Shown: piece by piece, positions 55,548-64,000 of the stretch
Numbering within the stretch: position 1 is the stretch's first letter
Layout of the letters: each line of letters opens with the position of its first letter
Position numbers and translations under genes: made by a program
DNA from: a virus
IMG/VR virus record: IMGVR_UViG_3300037245_001077
Coordinates: 112,534 to 176,533 of that record
DNA: 64,000 nucleotides
Direction: 5' to 3' (one strand)
The notes under the pieces: model-generated
The model's database searches: none
What the model saw: the letters and a program-made list of their open reading frames with translations, nothing else
Told to the model about the DNA's origin: nothing

Positions 55548-56429
55548 ATGCCCTTTGCTATTTATTCAAAACGTACCGGGATTATTAACCGCATCATAGA
55601 AGATCTTGATAGCTTGCTACCAAGTGAAGCTATGCTTGAGGTAGATGACGAGATCAACTACCCCCGAGGATTTAAGTCTCCTATTGAGGGGCAAGATCAA
55701 AACTCTTCGGGCTTTCCGCTATTTGACAACGCGGGTAATGCTATCCCGACGATTAACCCTACTCGAATAACATACGACACGGATGGTCGTCCAGTGACAA
55801 CTAAGAACAGCCCCATTTATGTAGCTCCTACTGTTCCTGGTGGTGCGCGTAAAACTGCGTGGGTTGACATTCCTATCACTAGCCATCCTTTTGTGTGGAC
55901 GGTGAGGGATCTTGCTGGTCTTAAATATGAAAGTATTCTTGCTCAGAACTACCCCTATCAAGTAGTAATTGGGGAGGAGTATATTGACGAAGATCATATT
56001 GATACGGGTAATTCTTCGGGGTATGTGCTAACTGAAGGTAGGTGCGTGTTACAGCCAGGTGGGGTACTTCAAAGCAAGGAGTTCAAGTTCTTCGTCACCA
56101 GTCAAGGTGTCGTTGATCCAGAGACAGACACGAGTGGTGAAGATGCTCGTACTTATATCTTTGATACCTACTACCTAGATGTAGAACCAGATCCTCCTTT
56201 CGGGATTGATGTTTCTTGGGATGGGAAGAAGTGGACTGGGGATACGTGGACAACTTTCCGTGATGCCGTTCTTGACGAAGAGATGCCTACTACATTAACA
56301 GGCGGGTCAGAGACAACAGCTACCCTCTTACGTGGAATTCGTTTGAGGTTTCAGAATCACACGTCTGAACCTTTCGGTATTGAAAACTTTATTATGTTTC
56401 TTCGTATCAGAAGACTCCCGCCAGTTTAG
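55548..56429 (+). CDS. Unknown 293-aa tail-associated protein
   Basis: ATG 55548 is chosen over the earlier in-frame 55515 because it follows the propeller stop by one base, with ACGAGG upstream. The product has a beta-rich domain (~residues 85-290) with VDIPITSHPFVWTVRDL and YIFDTYYLDVEPDPPFGIDV, possibly a jelly-roll-like attachment domain. Located right after the propeller protein, it is probably its partner. No family recognised. Confidence 0.52.
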   Translation: MPFAIYSKRTGIINRIIEDLDSLLPSEAMLEVDDEINYPRGFKSPIEGQDQNSSGFPLFDNAGNAIPTINPTRITYDTDGRPVTTKNSPIYVAPTVPGGARKTAWVDIPITSHPFVWTVRDLAGLKYESILAQNYPYQVVIGEEYIDEDHIDTGNSSGYVLTEGRCVLQPGGVLQSKEFKFFVTSQGVVDPETDTSGEDARTYIFDTYYLDVEPDPPFGIDVSWDGKKWTGDTWTTFRDAVLDEEMPTTLTGGSETTATLLRGIRLRFQNHTSEPFGIENFIMFLRIRRLPPV

Positions 56430-56438
56430 GAGGAATGA

Positions 56439-56846
56439 ATGGCTTTTTTTGCTACTACTGAAGACTTACCCTTTGCTCGGGCACAGTGGAATCCAAGAAA
56501 TCGAAACCGGAATACTCCAAAGGATGTGAATCCTCCGGTTCGACCCCCAAAGGCTCCTAAGACAGTTCCTTCAAGAACATCTAGAAGCTGCCGGTCACAG
56601 AAATATGTAAAACGTTTAGTGTATGGGTTTGAACGAATGGTTTGCGTAATATCTTCGGTACCTGCTAGGGTTCCTTATGGATACCAGGGTTTGATTGATA
56701 CTAGTGATCAATTACGTGGAAGAAGAAAACCACGTCGTATTCCTAACGCTGTGCTTAGAGATAGAAAGCCTACTCGACTTACCAGAAGGGGTTACCACAA
56801 GGCTAAAGCTAGTTCTTATGTCCGTGAGAACATTGAGGACAACTAA
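56439..56846 (+). CDS. Unknown 135-aa basic protein
   Basis: Starts behind TAGGAGG. The product is Arg/Pro-rich and probably largely disordered (RNRNRNTPKDVNPPVRPPKA), with a short hydrophobic core in the middle. Ends by TAATG overlap with the next small gene. No family recognised. Confidence 0.52.
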   Translation: MAFFATTEDLPFARAQWNPRNRNRNTPKDVNPPVRPPKAPKTVPSRTSRSCRSQKYVKRLVYGFERMVCVISSVPARVPYGYQGLIDTSDQLRGRRKPRRIPNAVLRDRKPTRLTRRGYHKAKASSYVRENIEDN

Positions 56847-56989
56847 TGGATAACCCTCGTGAAGCTGTGCTAGAAGATGTCCTCGCTCGTATCGCAGAAG
56901 AGCGAGGGATAGAGACATTGGCTCTTGATTGGAAGATCCTAGATGACCTAGTGGAGTCTGGGGAATCCAAAGAAGAGACTACTGAATAA
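56846..56989 (+). CDS. Small acidic 47-aa protein
   Basis: A short frame coupled by TAATG to the previous gene. The product is acidic and helical (MDNPREAVLEDVLARIAEER) and could bind the preceding basic protein. It is the last gene before the lysis genes. Confidence 0.45.
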   Translation: MDNPREAVLEDVLARIAEERGIETLALDWKILDDLVESGESKEETTE

Positions 56990-56998
56990 GATATTTTC

Positions 56999-57012
56999 GT
57001 TGTATCTACAAC
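56999..57012. promoter_or_regulatory. Perfect inverted repeat before endolysin gene
   Basis: GTTGTA-TC-TACAAC is a 14-base symmetric site just upstream of the TAGGAGG of the amidase gene. It could be an operator or part of a small hairpin near the ribosome site. Confidence 0.3.
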
Positions 57013-57026
57013 AATAGGAGGTTTCA

Positions 57027-57563
57027 ATGCCAAGATGGTCACATGTGGTGATACACCACTCTCTTACTGCCGACACTCTTCTCCCTAATGCTGTCGCAAT
57101 TCGACGGTTCCATACAAGTTACCGGCAGGGGGGAAACATAATCACTGAGACAGAGTACCAGGATTTACAGGAAGCTGGGGCCTCTAGCCTTGTTCGCCCA
57201 TGGAGAGACATAGGGTACCACTGGTTGATAGAAGAGATGTCTGACCACCGTCCATGGCTACTCCAGGGGCGTTCTATGATGATGCACGGTGCTCATACCC
57301 GAGAACAAGGGATGAACAGGAGAGGGATCGGAGTCTGTGCGGTGGGCAACTTCGATACTGCCCCTCCTCCTGAAGCACTGTTCGAGAAACTAGCCGACTC
57401 AGTAGCGTGGCTCTGTCGAATGTATCGTATCCCGGTGGAGAATGTACATGGGCATAAATTTTATGCGCCGTACAAATCTTGCCCCGGTAACAAATTCGAC
57501 ATGGATTATTTCCGTGAGAGAGTGACGGACTACCTGGAAGTGTGGACCCCTCGCGGCGGGTGA
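57027..57563 (+). CDS. Endolysin, N-acetylmuramoyl-L-alanine amidase (Amidase_2)
   Basis: The 178-aa protein has the features of T7-lysozyme-type amidases: VVIHHS at residues 7-12 (zinc His10/11), DIGYHWLIE with Tyr64, GAHTREQGMNRRGIGVCAVG, and HGHKFYAPYKSCPGNKFD with His143, Lys150 and Cys152 as ligands and catalytic residues. It cleaves the amide bond between the sugar and peptide of peptidoglycan. There is no signal peptide and no separate wall-binding domain, so release needs a holin; a small membrane protein follows two bases downstream. Confidence 0.88.
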   Translation: MPRWSHVVIHHSLTADTLLPNAVAIRRFHTSYRQGGNIITETEYQDLQEAGASSLVRPWRDIGYHWLIEEMSDHRPWLLQGRSMMMHGAHTREQGMNRRGIGVCAVGNFDTAPPPEALFEKLADSVAWLCRMYRIPVENVHGHKFYAPYKSCPGNKFDMDYFRERVTDYLEVWTPRGG

Positions 57564-57564
57564 A

Positions 57565-57864
57565 ATGGAAATTATTGACACTCTCCTCGGTCTTGCACAG
57601 CACATATCTATACGGCATGTGCTTGTTCTAAACCTGTGGGGGTGGACGATAAAATGCCTGTTGAACCATAAGGGGTGGGGTAATTGGACTGATATTGTCC
57701 CGCCTATCCTGGGGGTTAGTGGTATCACGCTGGCCGCCTTGGACCTTGATACTACTCAAGGGCACTTTATTGTGTACGGGCTGGCGAACGCTGGCGCGGC
57801 ATGGTTACTCCACCGGATAGTAAAACCTATTCCTGGGCTAATCAAGCAGATGGGTAAAAAATGA
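57565..57864 (+). CDS. Putative holin, small membrane protein
   Basis: A 99-aa protein starting one base after the endolysin stop. It has about two to three hydrophobic segments (VLVLNLWGWTIKCLL, IVPPILGVSGITLAAL, HFIVYGLANAGAAWLLH) and a short basic C-terminal tail. The 'DIVPPILGVSGI' part is typical of holins encoded beside endolysins. It would form the membrane lesions releasing the amidase. Overlaps the next gene by four bases. Confidence 0.55.
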   Translation: MEIIDTLLGLAQHISIRHVLVLNLWGWTIKCLLNHKGWGNWTDIVPPILGVSGITLAALDLDTTQGHFIVYGLANAGAAWLLHRIVKPIPGLIKQMGKK

Positions 57865-58370
57865 GTCGAAAAGGACTCGGAATCAGTAAGCTAGAAATAG
57901 TTCTCATGCTCCCAGGCATTCGTAAACGATTTAAGAAAACCATTGACAAAACAGGGGCAGTGGATGTAGGTAATGGGATGCGTACAATTGGGTACGTGTT
58001 CCATAGATTGAGGAGGGCGGCAAGGAAGCCGTACAAAAACGTACTAGAGAACCAGGCAATAGCGTTTGACTCTCTAGCTAACTTATTTGACATAGGAGGT
58101 CAAAAAATGGCTAAGCAATTCGAACTAGGTATTACTATGGCGGAGATTACTGCAATGCTTCCGAGTCTTTTGACTGAGGCATGGGGACACTATGCTGACG
58201 ACAAGAAGCTTACAGTAGACGAGGCTATCAGTCTTGTTTCATCTATTCTCAACAAGATGTCTGATGCCGCAGATGATGGAGATGTATCTGACTTCTTCGC
58301 TGCACAGTCAGCGGCTGCTAATTCTCTCATTCCTTTCTTTGAGGTAGACGAAGAACCGCCCGTTGAATAA
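57861..58370 (+). CDS. Unknown 169-aa duplicated protein in lysis region
   Basis: Starts by ATGA overlap with the holin-like gene. The two halves share a motif: LGISKLEIVLMLPGIRK near the start and LGITMAEITAMLPSLLT in the second half. A TAGGAGG (58093-58099) stands before the in-frame ATG 58107, so the second half can be made alone. The first half is basic, the second acidic. Function unknown. Confidence 0.55.
   Translation: MSRKGLGISKLEIVLMLPGIRKRFKKTIDKTGAVDVGNGMRTIGYVFHRLRRAARKPYKNVLENQAIAFDSLANLFDIGGQKMAKQFELGITMAEITAMLPSLLTEAWGHYADDKKLTVDEAISLVSSILNKMSDAADDGDVSDFFAAQSAAANSLIPFFEVDEEPPVE
58107..58370 (+). CDS. Nested shorter product of duplicated protein
   Basis: An internal in-frame ATG with a strong TAGGAGG eight bases before it gives an 87-aa acidic protein (MAKQFELGITMAEITAMLPS). 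The ribosome site is as good as that of independent genes here, so this may be the main product. Confidence 0.45.
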   Translation: MAKQFELGITMAEITAMLPSLLTEAWGHYADDKKLTVDEAISLVSSILNKMSDAADDGDVSDFFAAQSAAANSLIPFFEVDEEPPVE

Positions 58371-58396
58371 TCCTTCGGGATAAACTAAAATTTACC

Positions 58397-58433
58397 ATGC
58401 GCAGCCTGCTACTTGTGGGCTGCGCATCTTTAT
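58397..58433 (+). terminator. Rho-independent terminator
   Basis: ATGCGCAGCC (58397-58406) pairs perfectly with GGCTGCGCAT (58418-58427), followed by CTTTATTG. It ends the lysis-gene unit. A TATAAT at 58436-58441 follows immediately and could be the -10 box for the next gene, with a poor -35 (TTGTGG) inside the terminator. Confidence 0.8.
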
Positions 58434-58483
58434 TGTATAATACTGCTCGTGTTTTGAGCAAGTGGAGGTATTATGAGGAAAAC

Positions 58484-59713
58484 ATGCAACCCGAAGGTCG
58501 CAGTATGAGTATCCCCAATGACAAACAACAAACAATATCCCATGAAACCCTAGCCGATGGAACCATTCTGGTTTCTATCACTCCCATTGTTACAAACGCC
58601 CAAAGCTTTCAAGTAGACGAACTTGGTACACGTCACTTTGGTTTTAGAACTGAGAAAGATATCCGGGCTGTCTGTAATATCCCCGATGACTACGACACAG
58701 TTGTCATCAAACCAAACAATTGGGTTCAGCAAGATGAAAATGGGCCATTCATTGCCCACCAATCCAAAGGGACGTTCGCTCCCCCACACCCAGGAAGATA
58801 CGTTGCTGAGGCTCTCATCAACGAGTTAAAAGGGGTATCACCTGTAGTACCTTCCATCCACCCGTTTGAGCGGCCTGAGGGCACGCCTAAGCGTATGCTG
58901 GAGATCTCTGTAATGGACCCACACATTGGGTTGTATTGTTTTGCTCCGGGGGCTGACGCTTACTACGATTTTGACTTAGCTGAGAAGCTTTACCTCTGGG
59001 CCGTCAAAGAGCTGTCAATCATTGGAGCAGGCTACGGAGAGGTAGAAGAGATCCTCTTCCCCATTGGCAACGACTTCATCCATGCAGAGATGATGTCTCT
59101 CGGTGGTAAGGGAGTTCATGCTACTGCTGGGGGTACACCTCAGCCGGAGATGATCTCTTGGCATGAGACGTACATGCGTGGAGCAGCAATATTGCGTAAG
59201 GCTATTCTGTATATTAGCCAAATAGCTCCTGTCACCGTGCTCCAGATTCCTGGCAACCATGACAGATATTCGAGCTACACCATGGGGATGCTCATGGGAG
59301 CTTACTTTGAGAACAATGAGAACGTCACCATAGACTGCTCTGCAAGCCCCTACAAGTTCAAGAGGTACGGATGCAACCTCATAGGCTTCGAACACGGTCA
59401 CAGCGTGGCACAGATACGTCTAGCGGCTCTCATGGCCAACGAGAGACCTAAGGACTGGGCCGAGACCAAGTATCGTGAGTGGCACCTTGGTGACCAACAC
59501 AGGAAGGGTAGTTCTAAGCCTTCTGTACTGGAAGAGCAAGGCGTTAGCGTGGAGTTCCTGCCTTCGATCACAGCCCCTAACGAGTGGCATAGGTTGAAGA
59601 GCTTTAACTGGCAGAAGAGAGGCGCAATGGCGTGGCTGTGGGACTATGACACTGGTCCACTGGCCCGTTTCCAGGTCAATATTGATAGGGAAGGTAATCC
59701 CTACGGCTCCTAA
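58484..59713 (+). CDS. Calcineurin-like metallophosphoesterase
   Basis: ATG 58484 behind GAGGA is chosen; the longer frame from 58397 begins inside the terminator. The 409-aa protein has the metallophosphoesterase blocks in order: DPHIG (D145, H147), FPIGNDF (N196, D197), IPGNHDR (N258, H259), FEHGH (H304/H306) and HLGDQH. The first ~135 residues form an extra N-terminal domain. Such phage enzymes are often nucleases or phosphatases; the substrate is unknown here. It sits between the lysis genes and small membrane protein genes. Confidence 0.8.
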   Translation: MQPEGRSMSIPNDKQQTISHETLADGTILVSITPIVTNAQSFQVDELGTRHFGFRTEKDIRAVCNIPDDYDTVVIKPNNWVQQDENGPFIAHQSKGTFAPPHPGRYVAEALINELKGVSPVVPSIHPFERPEGTPKRMLEISVMDPHIGLYCFAPGADAYYDFDLAEKLYLWAVKELSIIGAGYGEVEEILFPIGNDFIHAEMMSLGGKGVHATAGGTPQPEMISWHETYMRGAAILRKAILYISQIAPVTVLQIPGNHDRYSSYTMGMLMGAYFENNENVTIDCSASPYKFKRYGCNLIGFEHGHSVAQIRLAALMANERPKDWAETKYREWHLGDQHRKGSSKPSVLEEQGVSVEFLPSITAPNEWHRLKSFNWQKRGAMAWLWDYDTGPLARFQVNIDREGNPYGS

Positions 59714-59724
59714 GGAGGAACACA

Positions 59725-60066
59725 ATGGATCTGTCTTTCGCAATGGACCCCTTGTACTGGGGTTGGTTAGCAATTCTTGCAGTGGTAGCTTTCTTTCAGA
59801 ATATGGCGTTCACGTGGGTCTCTCGGAGTCGTAACTCGGGAGACCCGCACTACCATAGGTACGCCGCGTGGTGTTCCAATGGTATCTGGCTGTTGTGCTT
59901 CCTTATGATCTGGAGTAAGGTATGGGAAGCCTTCGAGTCTACCAACTACATAGAGATGGTCCCACTATTCATCGTCTACATCTTAGCCACTGCCGAAGGC
60001 AGCGTCTTCATGATGAAGATCTTGCTCAAGAGAGAAAAGGGCAAGCAGCAGGTAGGCGCACGATAA
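59725..60066 (+). CDS. Small membrane protein, unknown
   Basis: ATG 59725 follows TAAGGAGGA. The 113-aa product has about three hydrophobic segments (WLAILAVVAFFQNMAF, GIWLLCFLMIW, LFIVYILATAEGSVFMM) and a basic tail. A holin or lysis regulator is possible from its place near the endolysin, but no family is recognised. Confidence 0.55.
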   Translation: MDLSFAMDPLYWGWLAILAVVAFFQNMAFTWVSRSRNSGDPHYHRYAAWCSNGIWLLCFLMIWSKVWEAFESTNYIEMVPLFIVYILATAEGSVFMMKILLKREKGKQQVGAR

Positions 60067-60102
60067 CTCTGCTTTATTAGCTGACAATATGAGGAGGTTC
60101 CT

Positions 60103-60408
60103 ATGGCTATAGGTGCGGTGACGGTGCTAACGTTTGTGTGGTCCTATGTTATCCCTGTCCTTCGAGATGGTGTAAAGGTGATTAACAAAGGGACATACAA
60201 GTTCATTAAAAATCGTGTAGACGACGCAGATATCTTAGAGCTGAGTGGGCTGGAGAAGCGCACCACCGTCTACACAGAGGCCGTAGTGTGGCTTCAAGAT
60301 AAGGGTGTGGATACTACCCTGTATTCTTCTGCTCTTATCTATTTGCTGCTTGAAATTGCGGTAGCGAACCTGAAGAAGAAGCAGAAGAGACTCGTTAGAA
60401 CTGGTTGA
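60103..60408 (+). CDS. Possible LLH-type holin or small membrane protein
   Basis: ATG 60103 follows GAGGAGG. The 101-aa product has one N-terminal hydrophobic segment (GAVTVLTFVWSYVIPVL), then an amphipathic helix ending EIAVANLKKKQKRL. This one-segment layout with a C-terminal helix resembles LL-H-type holins, but the match is weak. Confidence 0.45.
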   Translation: MAIGAVTVLTFVWSYVIPVLRDGVKVINKGTYKFIKNRVDDADILELSGLEKRTTVYTEAVVWLQDKGVDTTLYSSALIYLLLEIAVANLKKKQKRLVRTG

Positions 60409-60449
60409 TATCTTCAGGCAAATGCGGTATGGTGGACATGGAGGAAATT

Positions 60450-60752
60450 GTGAACACTACCGATCTAAAAAATTATTTGTATAAACGAGCGATTACCTTA
60501 TTCGATCCCCCTCTCACACGAGACGACATCTCGGTGATGGTAGACATGACACTCGACGGTATGACGAAGGCCCTAACAGAAGAGGACGATGATGGAGAGC
60601 GTAAGATGCTCCTTCGTGGCTTCGGTACGCTACGTGTAGTCCAGAGAAAGGGTAGGACGTATAGCGTGAGAGGTAAGGAGGTCGTTGTAGGAGACAGAGA
60701 TACAGTGACATTCAAGCCTGGTGCAGAGCTAGCAAGGACAATCAAAGAGTAA
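60450..60752 (+). CDS. HU-like DNA-binding protein
   Basis: The frame is open from 60405, but GTG 60450 behind GGAGGA (60440-60445) gives a standard HU-sized 100-aa protein beginning MNTTDLKNYLYKRA. Residues ~50-95 carry KMLLRGFGTLRVVQRKGRTY and DTVTFKPGAELARTI, the HU beta-arm and C-terminal helix. HU-type proteins bend DNA. It lies at the border between late and replication-type genes. It is the second HU-like gene in the window. Confidence 0.7.
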   Translation: MNTTDLKNYLYKRAITLFDPPLTRDDISVMVDMTLDGMTKALTEEDDDGERKMLLRGFGTLRVVQRKGRTYSVRGKEVVVGDRDTVTFKPGAELARTIKE

Positions 60753-60755
60753 GGG

Positions 60756-60784
60756 TTGACATCCGTGACTTCCTAATATACACT
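60756..60784 (+). promoter_or_regulatory. Sigma70-type promoter
   Basis: TTGACA (60756-60761), 17-base spacer, TACACT (60779-60784). Predicted start near 60791. It precedes no gene directly but reads into a hairpin and terminator, so it probably makes a short RNA. Confidence 0.6.
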
Positions 60785-60790
60785 CTAAAG

Positions 60791-60882
60791 GTCGTTGGTG
60801 AATGGTTGGTTGCACGCCTTTCCCCACCAGCGGCACGGCTCCTAAGGGAGACTCTTCCTAGCCTGAGAGTCTTCCTTTTTTA
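60791..60882 (+). ncRNA. Candidate small RNA with two hairpins
   Basis: From the predicted start, an 8-bp stem (CGTTGGTG 60793-60800 with CACCAGCG 60825-60832, one G-T pair) is followed by the terminator hairpin at 60847-60882. No good open frame or ribosome site is present. Length would be ~90 nt. The target is unknown. The evidence is structural only. Confidence 0.45.
60847..60882 (+). terminator. Rho-independent terminator
   Basis: GGAGACTCT (60847-60855) pairs with AGAGTCTTCC (one bulge, 60866-60875), followed by TTTTTT. It would end the small RNA or transcripts from the HU-like gene. Confidence 0.82.
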
Positions 60883-60901
60883 TTGGGCAACCAATTCCTC
60901 C

Positions 60902-60931
60902 TTGACATAGAACATTAGTTGTGTATACAAT
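60902..60931 (+). promoter_or_regulatory. Promoter of UvsW N-terminal-like gene, possibly leaderless
   Basis: TTGACA (60902-60907) and TATACA/TACAAT (60924-60931), 16-18 bases apart. Transcription would start at or a few bases before ATG 60938, and no ribosome site precedes that ATG, so the mRNA may lack a leader. Confidence 0.58.
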
Positions 60932-60937
60932 GAAATT

Positions 60938-61525
60938 ATGAAGTTTGAACGTAACGCCCAAGGCAACCTGAAAAAGACCAGCAACATCAAGCCTCCGAGG
61001 TACATGGACTACAGCCCTAAGGACACCATCAGGATCCTCTTCGGCATTGTCAAGTGCCAGTTCCTTACCCCATACCCACGTCCCTTAGACGACGCTCTCT
61101 CGGCTTACTATCCGGGGTTCATTCATACTGCTGCGTATAAGGCTCAACAATGGGATGGTAAACATAGGTTTATTACTCGCGCCGGATACTTCCCGACAGG
61201 GCTATTGCCCGTAGTATATGCCATCCTAAAGACAGGTAATAACCCCCTAATTCTCCCCGATAAAAACAAATATCAGGTACTTAAAATTCTCCCTAAAAAT
61301 GTTGTAGTCGTTACTAAAAAGGACGCCCAATACTACCACCCAGGTTTCGTTACCATGTACATCGACTTCGTCGATGTGCTGGGAGGATTGGATGAAGAGA
61401 GTGGTACCTTCCCCTATTCCGGTGCTTGTCTGAACGGTTGGAAGAAGGTTGAAGATACCAACCCCCTAGCCAAGCAAACTCTCAAACTTGCCAGGGGCCT
61501 CCACGTTGGCAAAACTAATCACTGA
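60938..61525 (+). CDS. UvsW N-terminal-like protein
   Basis: A 195-aa protein with a central segment AAYKAQQWDGKHRFITRAGY, then FPTGLLPVVYAIL. This pattern (YP....Y....WDGk..... ..FP.GLL) corresponds to the N-terminal domain that in T4-like UvsW helicases precedes the ATPase core. The helicase core follows as a separate gene at 61716. It may act as a separate DNA-binding subunit. The start has no ribosome site, and a promoter lies right upstream. Confidence 0.5.
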   Translation: MKFERNAQGNLKKTSNIKPPRYMDYSPKDTIRILFGIVKCQFLTPYPRPLDDALSAYYPGFIHTAAYKAQQWDGKHRFITRAGYFPTGLLPVVYAILKTGNNPLILPDKNKYQVLKILPKNVVVVTKKDAQYYHPGFVTMYIDFVDVLGGLDEESGTFPYSGACLNGWKKVEDTNPLAKQTLKLARGLHVGKTNH

Positions 61526-61538
61526 GACAGCGTCTCAG
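61522..61538 (+). other. Perfect hairpin across stop codon
   Basis: CTGAGAC-AGC-GTCTCAG; the TGA stop of the 60938 gene lies in its left arm. No T-tract follows, so it is not a typical terminator. Confidence 0.6.
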
Positions 61539-61551
61539 GGATGTTTGTATG

Positions 61552-61575
61552 AGGTATATACACGAAGTGTTATAC
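61552..61575 (+). other. Stable hairpin in helicase leader
   Basis: GGTATATACAC pairs with GTGTTATACC around a GAA loop, with one bulged T. It lies within the 190-base noncoding gap (61526-61715), which also holds GGGC-AGCA-GCCC and a promoter; no gene is seen in that gap. Confidence 0.6.
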
Positions 61576-61656
61576 CGAATGCAAACTCTATAGGGTTATA
61601 AGAGGGGAGTATGAGGGGGGAAAGAAGGGGGCAGCAGCCCTCTTAAAAATCCGGCC

Positions 61657-61685
61657 TTGACAAGACGCCAGTCCGCTGTTAGGCT
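61657..61685 (+). promoter_or_regulatory. Sigma70-type promoter for helicase gene
   Basis: TTGACA (61657-61662), 17-base spacer, TAGGCT (61680-61685) preceded by TGT, an extended -10 element. It is 31 bases before the helicase start. Confidence 0.55.
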
Positions 61686-61715
61686 AGGACTCCACCTCAA
61701 GAAAGAGGTAGGAGC

Positions 61716-63035
61716 ATGGGAGGCTACGTGGGATCCAGTGCAATATTTCAAATCACAAGCTGGCAGCAGCTAGCAGATCATTTCCCAGGAATACAACCTA
61801 TTGCAGACCTTGAACTTAGCGAGGACATCGAGTTCCGAAGCTACCAAGCTGCTGCTACAACCACAGCCATCTTCTCAGGCTTCCGTGGTGTAGTGAGGGC
61901 GGCAACAGGTTCAGGTAAGACCCTTATCTCAGCAGCAATCTGTGGAGCCATGCTCCCCAAGCGATCCGTGATCATGATTCACGGCAGGGAGCTTGTGTCC
62001 CAAACATACAAAACTCTAACAACGTACCTTGGAAAAGAAACTGTAGGCGTAATCAGCACCGATGAATTTAACCCTAAAGCAATAACCATAGCGTCCATTG
62101 ACACGTTTTCGTTCTACATGGGCAAGTTACCCGTCAACCAAAAGACTCGCGTACCCATAATGGATCCTAAAGAATTTGAAAGACTAGCTGACAAGTTTGC
62201 TAACTACCTTGAAAATGAAATAGATATGCTCGTCTTCGATGAAGTACACCACGGATCAGCCGACACGTGGCAGGCCATAGGTAAGTACAGTAAAGCCTAC
62301 TATCGAGTAGGGTTAAGCGGTACACCCCTCAAGCAGGATGTCCTTTCAGACATGCTCATGATGAGCCTAGTGGGGCCTGTGATCTTTGATCTCAATGCCC
62401 CTTGGCTCCAGCGTGAAGGGTACTTGGCCGAGGCACGGTTGGAGATCCGTACCCTCGATTACACCACACCTAAAACTCGTGGACTCAAATGGCAAGACGC
62501 AAAGAAAAAACTTTTAGTTGAAAATACAGAACGTACCGCTCACATTGCAGGAGATATCGCTCAAGATATTTCCGCGCCTGAAACACGTTTACTTGTTTTA
62601 ACCGGAAACTCTGTTGACATTGCAGAAAATTTAGAAGAAGAACTAATCGCGTTGGCAAGACCACTCACACGAAAACTTGGTTACAGACCTTTCGTAATGA
62701 TAACTGGGAAAACAAATCCGCGTAAAGTTTCTAAAGCATTCAAAGATTTACGTACAGGTGATGTGCGGTGCGTTATAACCACCAAGCTGGCTGATGAGGG
62801 CATTGACGTGCCCAACATCAACCTGCTCTACCTCGTTGGAGGTGGTAAGGCATACGTCTCCACTGTTCAGCGCATCGGAAGAGGGCTACGGGTGAAAGAC
62901 GGGGGCGAGGAGCTTCTCGTGGTGGACTACTTCACTCGTGGCAATAAGTACTTGGAGAAGCATGACCGTAAGCGATTGAAGACCTACGAGGAGGAAGCCT
63001 TCTTCAAGGAGGTCACCACTCACGATGTGGGTTGA
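61716..63035 (+). CDS. SF2 helicase, UvsW-like
   Basis: ATG 61716 follows TAGGAG. The 439-aa protein has superfamily 2 motifs in order: ATGSGKT (residues 63-69), DEVHHG (175-180), SGTP (201-204), TTKLADEGIDVPN (355-367) and QRIGRG (385-390). T4 UvsW branch-migrates recombination and replication intermediates and removes R-loops; this family call is made on the motifs and on the UvsW-like N-terminal protein encoded upstream. The N-terminus here is short (about 40 aa before the Q-motif region). Confidence 0.82.
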   Translation: MGGYVGSSAIFQITSWQQLADHFPGIQPIADLELSEDIEFRSYQAAATTTAIFSGFRGVVRAATGSGKTLISAAICGAMLPKRSVIMIHGRELVSQTYKTLTTYLGKETVGVISTDEFNPKAITIASIDTFSFYMGKLPVNQKTRVPIMDPKEFERLADKFANYLENEIDMLVFDEVHHGSADTWQAIGKYSKAYYRVGLSGTPLKQDVLSDMLMMSLVGPVIFDLNAPWLQREGYLAEARLEIRTLDYTTPKTRGLKWQDAKKKLLVENTERTAHIAGDIAQDISAPETRLLVLTGNSVDIAENLEEELIALARPLTRKLGYRPFVMITGKTNPRKVSKAFKDLRTGDVRCVITTKLADEGIDVPNINLLYLVGGGKAYVSTVQRIGRGLRVKDGGEELLVVDYFTRGNKYLEKHDRKRLKTYEEEAFFKEVTTHDVG

Positions 63036-64000
63036 AGAAGCCTACCCGGAGTACGCCTACGAAGACCCCGACTACGAGGACGCGGAGAACCTTAGTGATG
63101 TCCGAATTCTTCGGTTGGTCAAGACCTACCATGATCTCGTATCCCAGCGGTACGACAACGACAACCCTTATCCCTACACGAACTTCAAGAGGACGCCAGA
63201 AAATAGATACCTTAAGCAGCAGGGCAAACGCTACTATAAACGGCTTATGTATATTGGAGATCGTTTAGAAGACCGAGACCCGGCTCTCTTCATGGCTTTT
63301 GTTTTTGAGTTATGGTGGAACCGTAAATACTACCATATTTACAAGCACCTTGGAGTGAAGGAGCAACCAGGGATTCAGTTCCCCTCTATGTATGTCATCC
63401 TTGAGTATAAAGAGGAGCTGGTAAAACTCTTCATGGATAAGATTGATTATAGACCCAAGGACTTTATCCCCAAGGATGAACACCGTAGCCGAAGAAAAGA
63501 AGCCATGAAGGGCAAGGTAGATCGGTGGTGTTCTTGCTTTGAGAAGACTCCGTGGGATTACTGGTTGAAGCCTAGGCATCTCCACCCTGACCTTATCTCT
63601 GCCCGAGACCTAGACCATGCAGAGAGCTTCTGGGAGTTGGACGAGCGGTTTCAGAAGGAGTTTGGGGTATCGGCCCAGGAAATTCGTGATAACTTGGAGA
63701 AGTCCGAAGGTATACTCGAAAGGGAGAGGGATAAGATTTACAAGAAGACTGTGGCACGGAACAACAGGTTACGGGCGCAAGGACTCCCTCCACAGTACAA
63801 TCATGTGCTCACTATCCCTAACGAGGAGATTTTTGATGAGTACACTCTACTGAGGATTGATTATTGTCAGACAGCCCTGAACGAGGGCATAGATGTTACG
63901 ACTGAGGAGTTTGAACGGGAGATGGAAGACGCCATTAATCCAATAGACCCTGATAACCCGGACACCGTGATGTACTACCACTATGGTGTTGGGGATGGAC
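63025..64000 (+). CDS. Unknown protein, 3' partial
   Basis: ATG 63025 overlaps the helicase end by 11 bases; AGGAGG (63007-63012) is upstream. The frame stays open to the window edge (at least 325 aa). The product is acidic at the start (VEEAYPEYAYEDPDYEDAEN), then mixed and rich in Tyr, Trp and Lys. No recognised motif. Coupling to the helicase suggests a role in DNA metabolism or virion-independent functions. Confidence 0.65.
   Translation, partial: MWVEEAYPEYAYEDPDYEDAENLSDVRILRLVKTYHDLVSQRYDNDNPYPYTNFKRTPENRYLKQQGKRYYKRLMYIGDRLEDRDPALFMAFVFELWWNRKYYHIYKHLGVKEQPGIQFPSMYVILEYKEELVKLFMDKIDYRPKDFIPKDEHRSRRKEAMKGKVDRWCSCFEKTPWDYWLKPRHLHPDLISARDLDHAESFWELDERFQKEFGVSAQEIRDNLEKSEGILERERDKIYKKTVARNNRLRAQGLPPQYNHVLTIPNEEIFDEYTLLRIDYCQTALNEGIDVTTEEFEREMEDAINPIDPDNPDTVMYYHYGVGDG

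Follow-up and report, generated by a model that had tools for sequence, protein, structure and literature searches.

A conserved cassette upstream of the split UvsW genes in large phages most likely encodes a small RNA, with the helicase leader as candidate target

What is encoded in the short gap that separates an HU-like gene from the replication genes of a large uncultured phage? The window analysed here, a stretch of 64,000 nucleotides, covers bases 112534-176533 of a 176.5-kb phage record. The two ends of this record share a 143-bp overlap with a single mismatch, which makes a complete and circularly permuted genome probable. Between the end of the HU-like gene at 60752 and the gene starting at 60938, a promoter (P1), a hairpin, a linker, a terminator and a second promoter (P2) follow each other in this order:

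60405..60752, + strand: HU-like DNA-binding protein (Pfam PF00216, PHROG 379), which closes the upstream operon and serves as synteny anchor, adjoining the cassette in the relatives
60756..60784, + strand: promoter P1, sigma70-type, TTGACA-17-TACACT (10/12 match), with a counterpart in 5/5 relatives
60791..60881, + strand: predicted small RNA of ~91 nt (folding; start placed 6-7 nt past the -10 hexamer, end from the T-run)
60791..60834, + strand: 5′ hairpin of 10 pairs, GUCGUUGGUG / CACCAGCGGC (folding)
60835..60843, + strand: single-stranded linker ACGGCUCCU, 9 nt (folding; pairing tests)
60838-60844, + strand: proposed target-pairing seed GCUCCUA, linker plus one stem base (linker/leader pairing tests)
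60844..60881, + strand: intrinsic terminator with pyrimidine-rich loop and T-run (folding; promoter/terminator scan)
60902..60931, + strand: promoter P2 of the UvsW-N gene, TTGACA-18-TACAAT (11/12 match)

A sequence-only reading had proposed a phage small RNA at this position, with a TTGACA-17-TACACT promoter, a stem near the start, a strong terminator and no coding frame. The promoter is present as described (TTGACA 60756-60761, spacer of 17, TACACT 60779-60784), and so is the terminator, whose stem (60844-60877) comprises 13 pairs before the T-run reaches ~60881. A hairpin close to the start was likewise found, 6 nt after the -10 hexamer of P1, but it has 10 pairs, two of them G-U, instead of the eight that had been counted. 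P1 and P2 are the only promoter hits of at least 10/12 in 56000-64000, and tandem strong promoters are not expected by chance, with at least one such promoter in 1% and two in none of 2000 dinucleotide shuffles of the gap. The RNA (60791-60882) folds with -38.3 kcal/mol, a value reached by 0/200 shuffles and a z of -4.0 that is owed in good part to the terminator. Taken alone, the 5′ part does not reach significance in the window sequence (p=0.076); over six phages, all with a predicted 5′ hairpin of differing sequence, its folding gave a combined Fisher p of 0.008. As had been claimed, no coding frame stands out: the sole ATG frame spans 19 codons and lacks a clear ribosome site, and the six phages have no reading frame in common. 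Rfam yielded no match at gathering level, just chance-level matches to unrelated families.

The comparison with relatives was reached via the major capsid protein, which led to 11 related contigs, four of them spanning the region with HU and UvsW-N genes; a fifth distinct relative (L033) was reached through the helicase alignment. In the four relatives that were aligned, UvsW-N shares 43-51% identity with the protein of the window. The order P1, 5′ hairpin, short linker, terminator-type hairpin and P2 is kept in 6/6 phages in the same gap between the HU-like and UvsW-N genes, with the terminator-type hairpin of G003 missing a good U-run. This degree of architectural conservation is unusual. 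The sequences themselves are not alignable: a DNA search for the cassette in the 11 related contigs returned nothing, and aligning the six RNAs with MAFFT gave no meaningful result. When the fetched genomes were scanned for a strong promoter and a terminator within 170 nt, the cassette was the sole intergenic non-coding unit of such quality, besides one site where the tRNA array of the window phage (G000) ends; the scan missed the G003 cassette because of its lacking U-run. Two more scans for family members found none past the six plus one near-identical copy. A phage DNA similarity search gave no related record and chance pieces at most, single-sequence protein scans with UvsW-N and the helicase retrieved no relatives, and none emerged when bacterial genomes were scanned with alignments of UvsW-N and the capsid protein. 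Kept in six distinct phages with its own promoter and terminator-type hairpin and set apart from the flanking operons, the cassette most likely represents a real non-coding small RNA, whose existence we regard as well supported by the sequence comparison.

A terminator followed by promoters is common at phage operon borders, and the arrangement could be ordinary punctuation, consisting of an upstream terminator and early promoters with no functional small RNA. We consider this very improbable, since P1 precedes the terminator in 6/6 phages, the 5′ hairpin and the linker complementarity described below are retained, and three relatives (G005, G010 and G003) have a separate terminator-like hairpin between the HU gene and P1. 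G010 moreover carries an extra ORF between its HU-like gene and P1 (L020 910-1300; no Pfam match). Therefore, the cassette is a unit of its own that is tied to the UvsW-N gene and not the tail of the upstream operon. The terminator lies directly upstream of replication genes on the same strand, which would also suit a leader or attenuator, where P1 transcripts mostly end at the terminator and regulated read-through reaches UvsW-N and the helicase, with the hairpin as antiterminator or sensor. However, a second strong promoter right past the terminator in 6/6 phages makes read-through unneeded, and a non-exhaustive set of computed folds contained no alternative antiterminator structure, which makes this reading improbable.

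The genes on the two sides bear out the claimed border between late and replication genes. Upstream are an endolysin, a DNA repair exonuclease homologue, small proteins and the HU-like protein; downstream are UvsW-N, helicase, DnaB-like and primase-like genes. The elements nearest to the cassette on this side are:

60938..61525, + strand: UvsW N-terminal-domain protein, 195 aa, separate from the helicase core (Pfam, PDB and PHROG matches)
61657..61685, + strand: promoter P3 of the helicase gene, TTGACA-17-TAGGCT (from sequence)
61709..61715, + strand: proposed small RNA target UAGGAGC, -7 to -1 of the helicase start codon (pairing tests)
61716..63035, + strand: UvsW-like helicase core (ResIII and Helicase_C domain matches), proposed target gene

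The 60938 gene matches Pfam UvsW_N with E=0.056 (below cut-off), PHROG 16 DNA helicase with E=3.5e-4 and the T4 UvsW structures 1rif/2oca in PDB with E about 0.01. These matches are weak but specific and point to the UvsW N-terminal domain. The UvsW-N and helicase-core genes lie ~190 nt apart, with similar or longer gaps in the relatives. The distant relatives G013 and G015 encode UvsW in one ORF, and the split therefore marks the present clade. The gap itself (61526-61715) holds an imperfect hairpin at ~61540-61590 (GAGGTA...TACCGA); G005 and G010 contain hairpins like it, and in relatives purine-rich G-tracts follow the hairpin before P3. A possible role of this region is that of an origin or an mRNA element.

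A further reading is that promoter and transcript serve replication initiation as R-loop or primer, like oriF/oriG of T4, and that the RNA product is secondary. The cassette adjoins the two UvsW genes, with which the replication genes begin, T4 UvsW unwinds origin R-loops (PMC3016281), the GC skew of G000 has its minimum around the cassette region, and hairpin and G-tracts recur in the relatives' next gap. On the other hand, the skew is weak and nearly all genes lie on one strand, the terminator makes the transcript very short, and a non-exhaustive look identified no iterons or AT-rich unwinding element. We therefore rate an origin function as highly unlikely.

If the cassette encodes a small RNA, which gene could it act on? 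Its unpaired parts are pyrimidine-rich (54-79% C+U), and UCC-type motifs, picked after inspection, occur there 20 times versus 6.7 expected (p=0.0005). A CU-rich motif is found in the linker of 5/6 phages and in most terminator loops, and inconsistently in the hairpin loop. Because generic anti-Shine-Dalgarno pairing would suit many genes, we compared the pairing of each linker with its own phage's leaders to that with the leaders of the other phages, using an exact permutation. For the helicase leader the cognate excess gave p=0.003 in a test with n=6, a target chosen post hoc and a smallest possible p of 1/720. Over 45 boundary choices p ranged from 0.001 to 0.13, with most values <0.03. The main guard against the post hoc choice is the comparison with 40 ortholog groups, among which the helicase took rank 1 in 12/12 settings (p 0.001-0.036, or 0.001-0.04 rounded), with a wide lead over the other groups in most of them. 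Furthermore, a sliding target window placed the signal just at -60 to +30 around the helicase start. Neither the terminator loop (p=0.40) nor the UvsW-N leader (p=0.46), both run as controls, gave a cognate signal. Regulation of either side had been left open by the sequence-only reading; the coevolution test points downstream, to the helicase leader at 61716 and not to the 60938 gene. Thus, the exposed stretch of the RNA appears to have changed together with the helicase gene start.

Perfect or near-perfect duplexes of 7-10 bp can be formed in 4/6 phages. In the window phage, GCUCCUA (60838-60844) pairs perfectly with UAGGAGC (61709-61715), and these seven pairs are short. L033 has 9 bp at -13..-5 of the helicase start, G010 7 bp at -9..-3, and G005 10 bp at -38..-29, near the predicted mRNA 5′ end; the duplexes of G008 and G003 are weak 6-mers with a G-U. 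We regard the helicase leader as a moderately supported target on these comparative grounds. The leader of the window phage is itself predicted to fold at 61690-61714 into a hairpin (CUCCACCUC/GAGGUAGGAG) that masks the ribosome site of the leader, and UAGGAGC overlaps this hairpin. Two other pairings were set aside: the DnaB-like gene is top by absolute ranks but only rank 22 of 40 in cognate specificity, and a 9-nt match of the G000 terminator loop to 61681-61689 overlaps the P3 -10 and is without general support.

C-rich small RNAs of Gram-positive bacteria act via generic anti-Shine-Dalgarno motifs. Accordingly worded for this locus, a real conserved small RNA could have host mRNAs or many phage mRNAs as main targets via such motifs, or could act by protein binding, and the helicase match would be secondary or due to chance. 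The unpaired regions are rich in UCC/CUCC, as are terminator loops such as CCUCCUUUC (G010) and UCCCCCCC (G008), and many phage genes out-pair the helicase in absolute energy, where it lies within the best 8-22% of genes. However, a generic motif does not predict a phage-specific match to one gene's leader, and we see this broader mode of action as a possibility of lesser weight.

The reading we prefer, and hold to be about evenly poised between right and wrong, is that of an independent, terminated small RNA gene, expressed early, whose linker pairs with the helicase leader and restrains translation. It builds on a conserved transcription unit, the lack of a common frame, pyrimidine-rich unpaired regions and phage-specific linker/leader complementarity, from which we infer expression, timing, direct pairing and the sign (repression) of its action. 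The host RNA polymerase would transcribe 60756-60881 independently and probably early. The 5′ hairpin and the terminator hairpin would shield the RNA and keep the C+U-rich linker single-stranded, and this linker would base-pair with the mRNA leader of the UvsW-like helicase core, transcribed ~900 nt further downstream. In the window phage, GCUCCUA would meet UAGGAGC beside the helicase start codon, and the pairing would most likely block initiation and hold down helicase translation early in infection, so that the small RNA probably sets the amount of helicase. T4 expresses its UvsW from a late promoter, and the protein unwinds R-loops at origins (PMC3016281); by analogy, an early restraint of the helicase would make sense. 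A bolder version, which we regard as rather unlikely, is that the RNA serves as a post-transcriptional timer for the split UvsW: expressed from an early host-type promoter, it would keep the helicase core in check to let origin (R-loop) replication run ahead of recombination-dependent replication, would replace the late-promoter timing of T4 and would coevolve with the helicase leader.

Several known systems resemble parts of this proposal. As in the general class of phage trans-acting small RNAs, a promoter and an intrinsic terminator (U-run missing in G003) enclose a short intergenic RNA with no conserved reading frame. The layout of stem-loop, single-stranded stretch and terminator is that of the LhrC RNAs of Listeria monocytogenes, multicopy RNAs with UCCC in three sites, whose CU-rich motifs pair with the Shine-Dalgarno region (PMC4132741). 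Here, similar exposed CU-rich motifs would face such a region; unlike LhrC, the cassette is a single gene in a phage, and the mRNA it is proposed to target comes from a neighbouring phage gene, and neither common sequence nor an Rfam sequence or structure match places it in the LhrC family. Lambda OOP RNA, a true antisense RNA to cII mRNA (described in PMC12197685), is likewise a short phage transcript that starts from a promoter of its own, ends at a terminator and is encoded next to replication genes. In contrast to OOP, the proposed target is not overlapped and the pairing is short and imperfect; an OOP-type cis-antisense function was rejected, as the cassette lies upstream of and on the same strand as UvsW-N and the helicase. 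The c4 RNA of P1/P7 and sar RNA of P22 control antirepressor genes of temperate phages (described in PMC12197685), and like them, with c4 acting around the ribosome site, our candidate would block translation of a phage gene by mRNA pairing, whereas its neighbours are replication genes and Rfam contains no match for it. Action in trans during phage development would be shared with lambda PreS and with VpdS of phage VP882 (both described in PMC12197685); these two bind Hfq and have host targets, to which VpdS adds phage targets. Timed expression of a UvsW-type helicase would be common to T4 (PMC3016281) and the present phages, which differ in that two separate genes of the replication region encode UvsW and a small RNA is proposed in place of the late promoter.

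Translation-blocking phage RNAs and C-rich small RNAs are known kinds, and the new element is the cognate match of linker and helicase leader; searches of an open-access library turned up no small RNA described for UvsW. Most phage small RNAs in one review come from temperate phages of enteric bacteria (PMC12197685). A unit that six distinct large, uncultured phages retain despite sequence turnover, with a predicted target in the replication region, would offer a testable case of small RNA control of phage replication proteins. Moreover, architecture combined with cognate-versus-swapped pairing can reveal small RNAs and targets where alignment and Rfam fail. In a study of Listeria phage CKA15, the lack of terminators and UCCC motifs was taken as an argument against reading the abundant intergenic transcripts as small RNAs (PMC12282133); the cassette, in contrast, has terminator-type hairpins and C-rich motifs.

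Two minor observations concern the wider genome. The predicted start of P2 lies a few nt from the ATG at 60938, which leaves the UvsW-N mRNA nearly leaderless. Such near-leaderless promoters (TTGACA-16/18-TAnnnT, ending ~6-10 nt before the ATG) are seen as P2 in all six phages and also at other genes, e.g. at 80065 and 86302 of G000. Furthermore, the window phage carries an array of 27 tRNA genes together with a phage tmRNA (tag DEFEQLPLAA) at L005 13018-19130 and L006 272-1468, which corresponds to 73.0-81.5 kb of G000.
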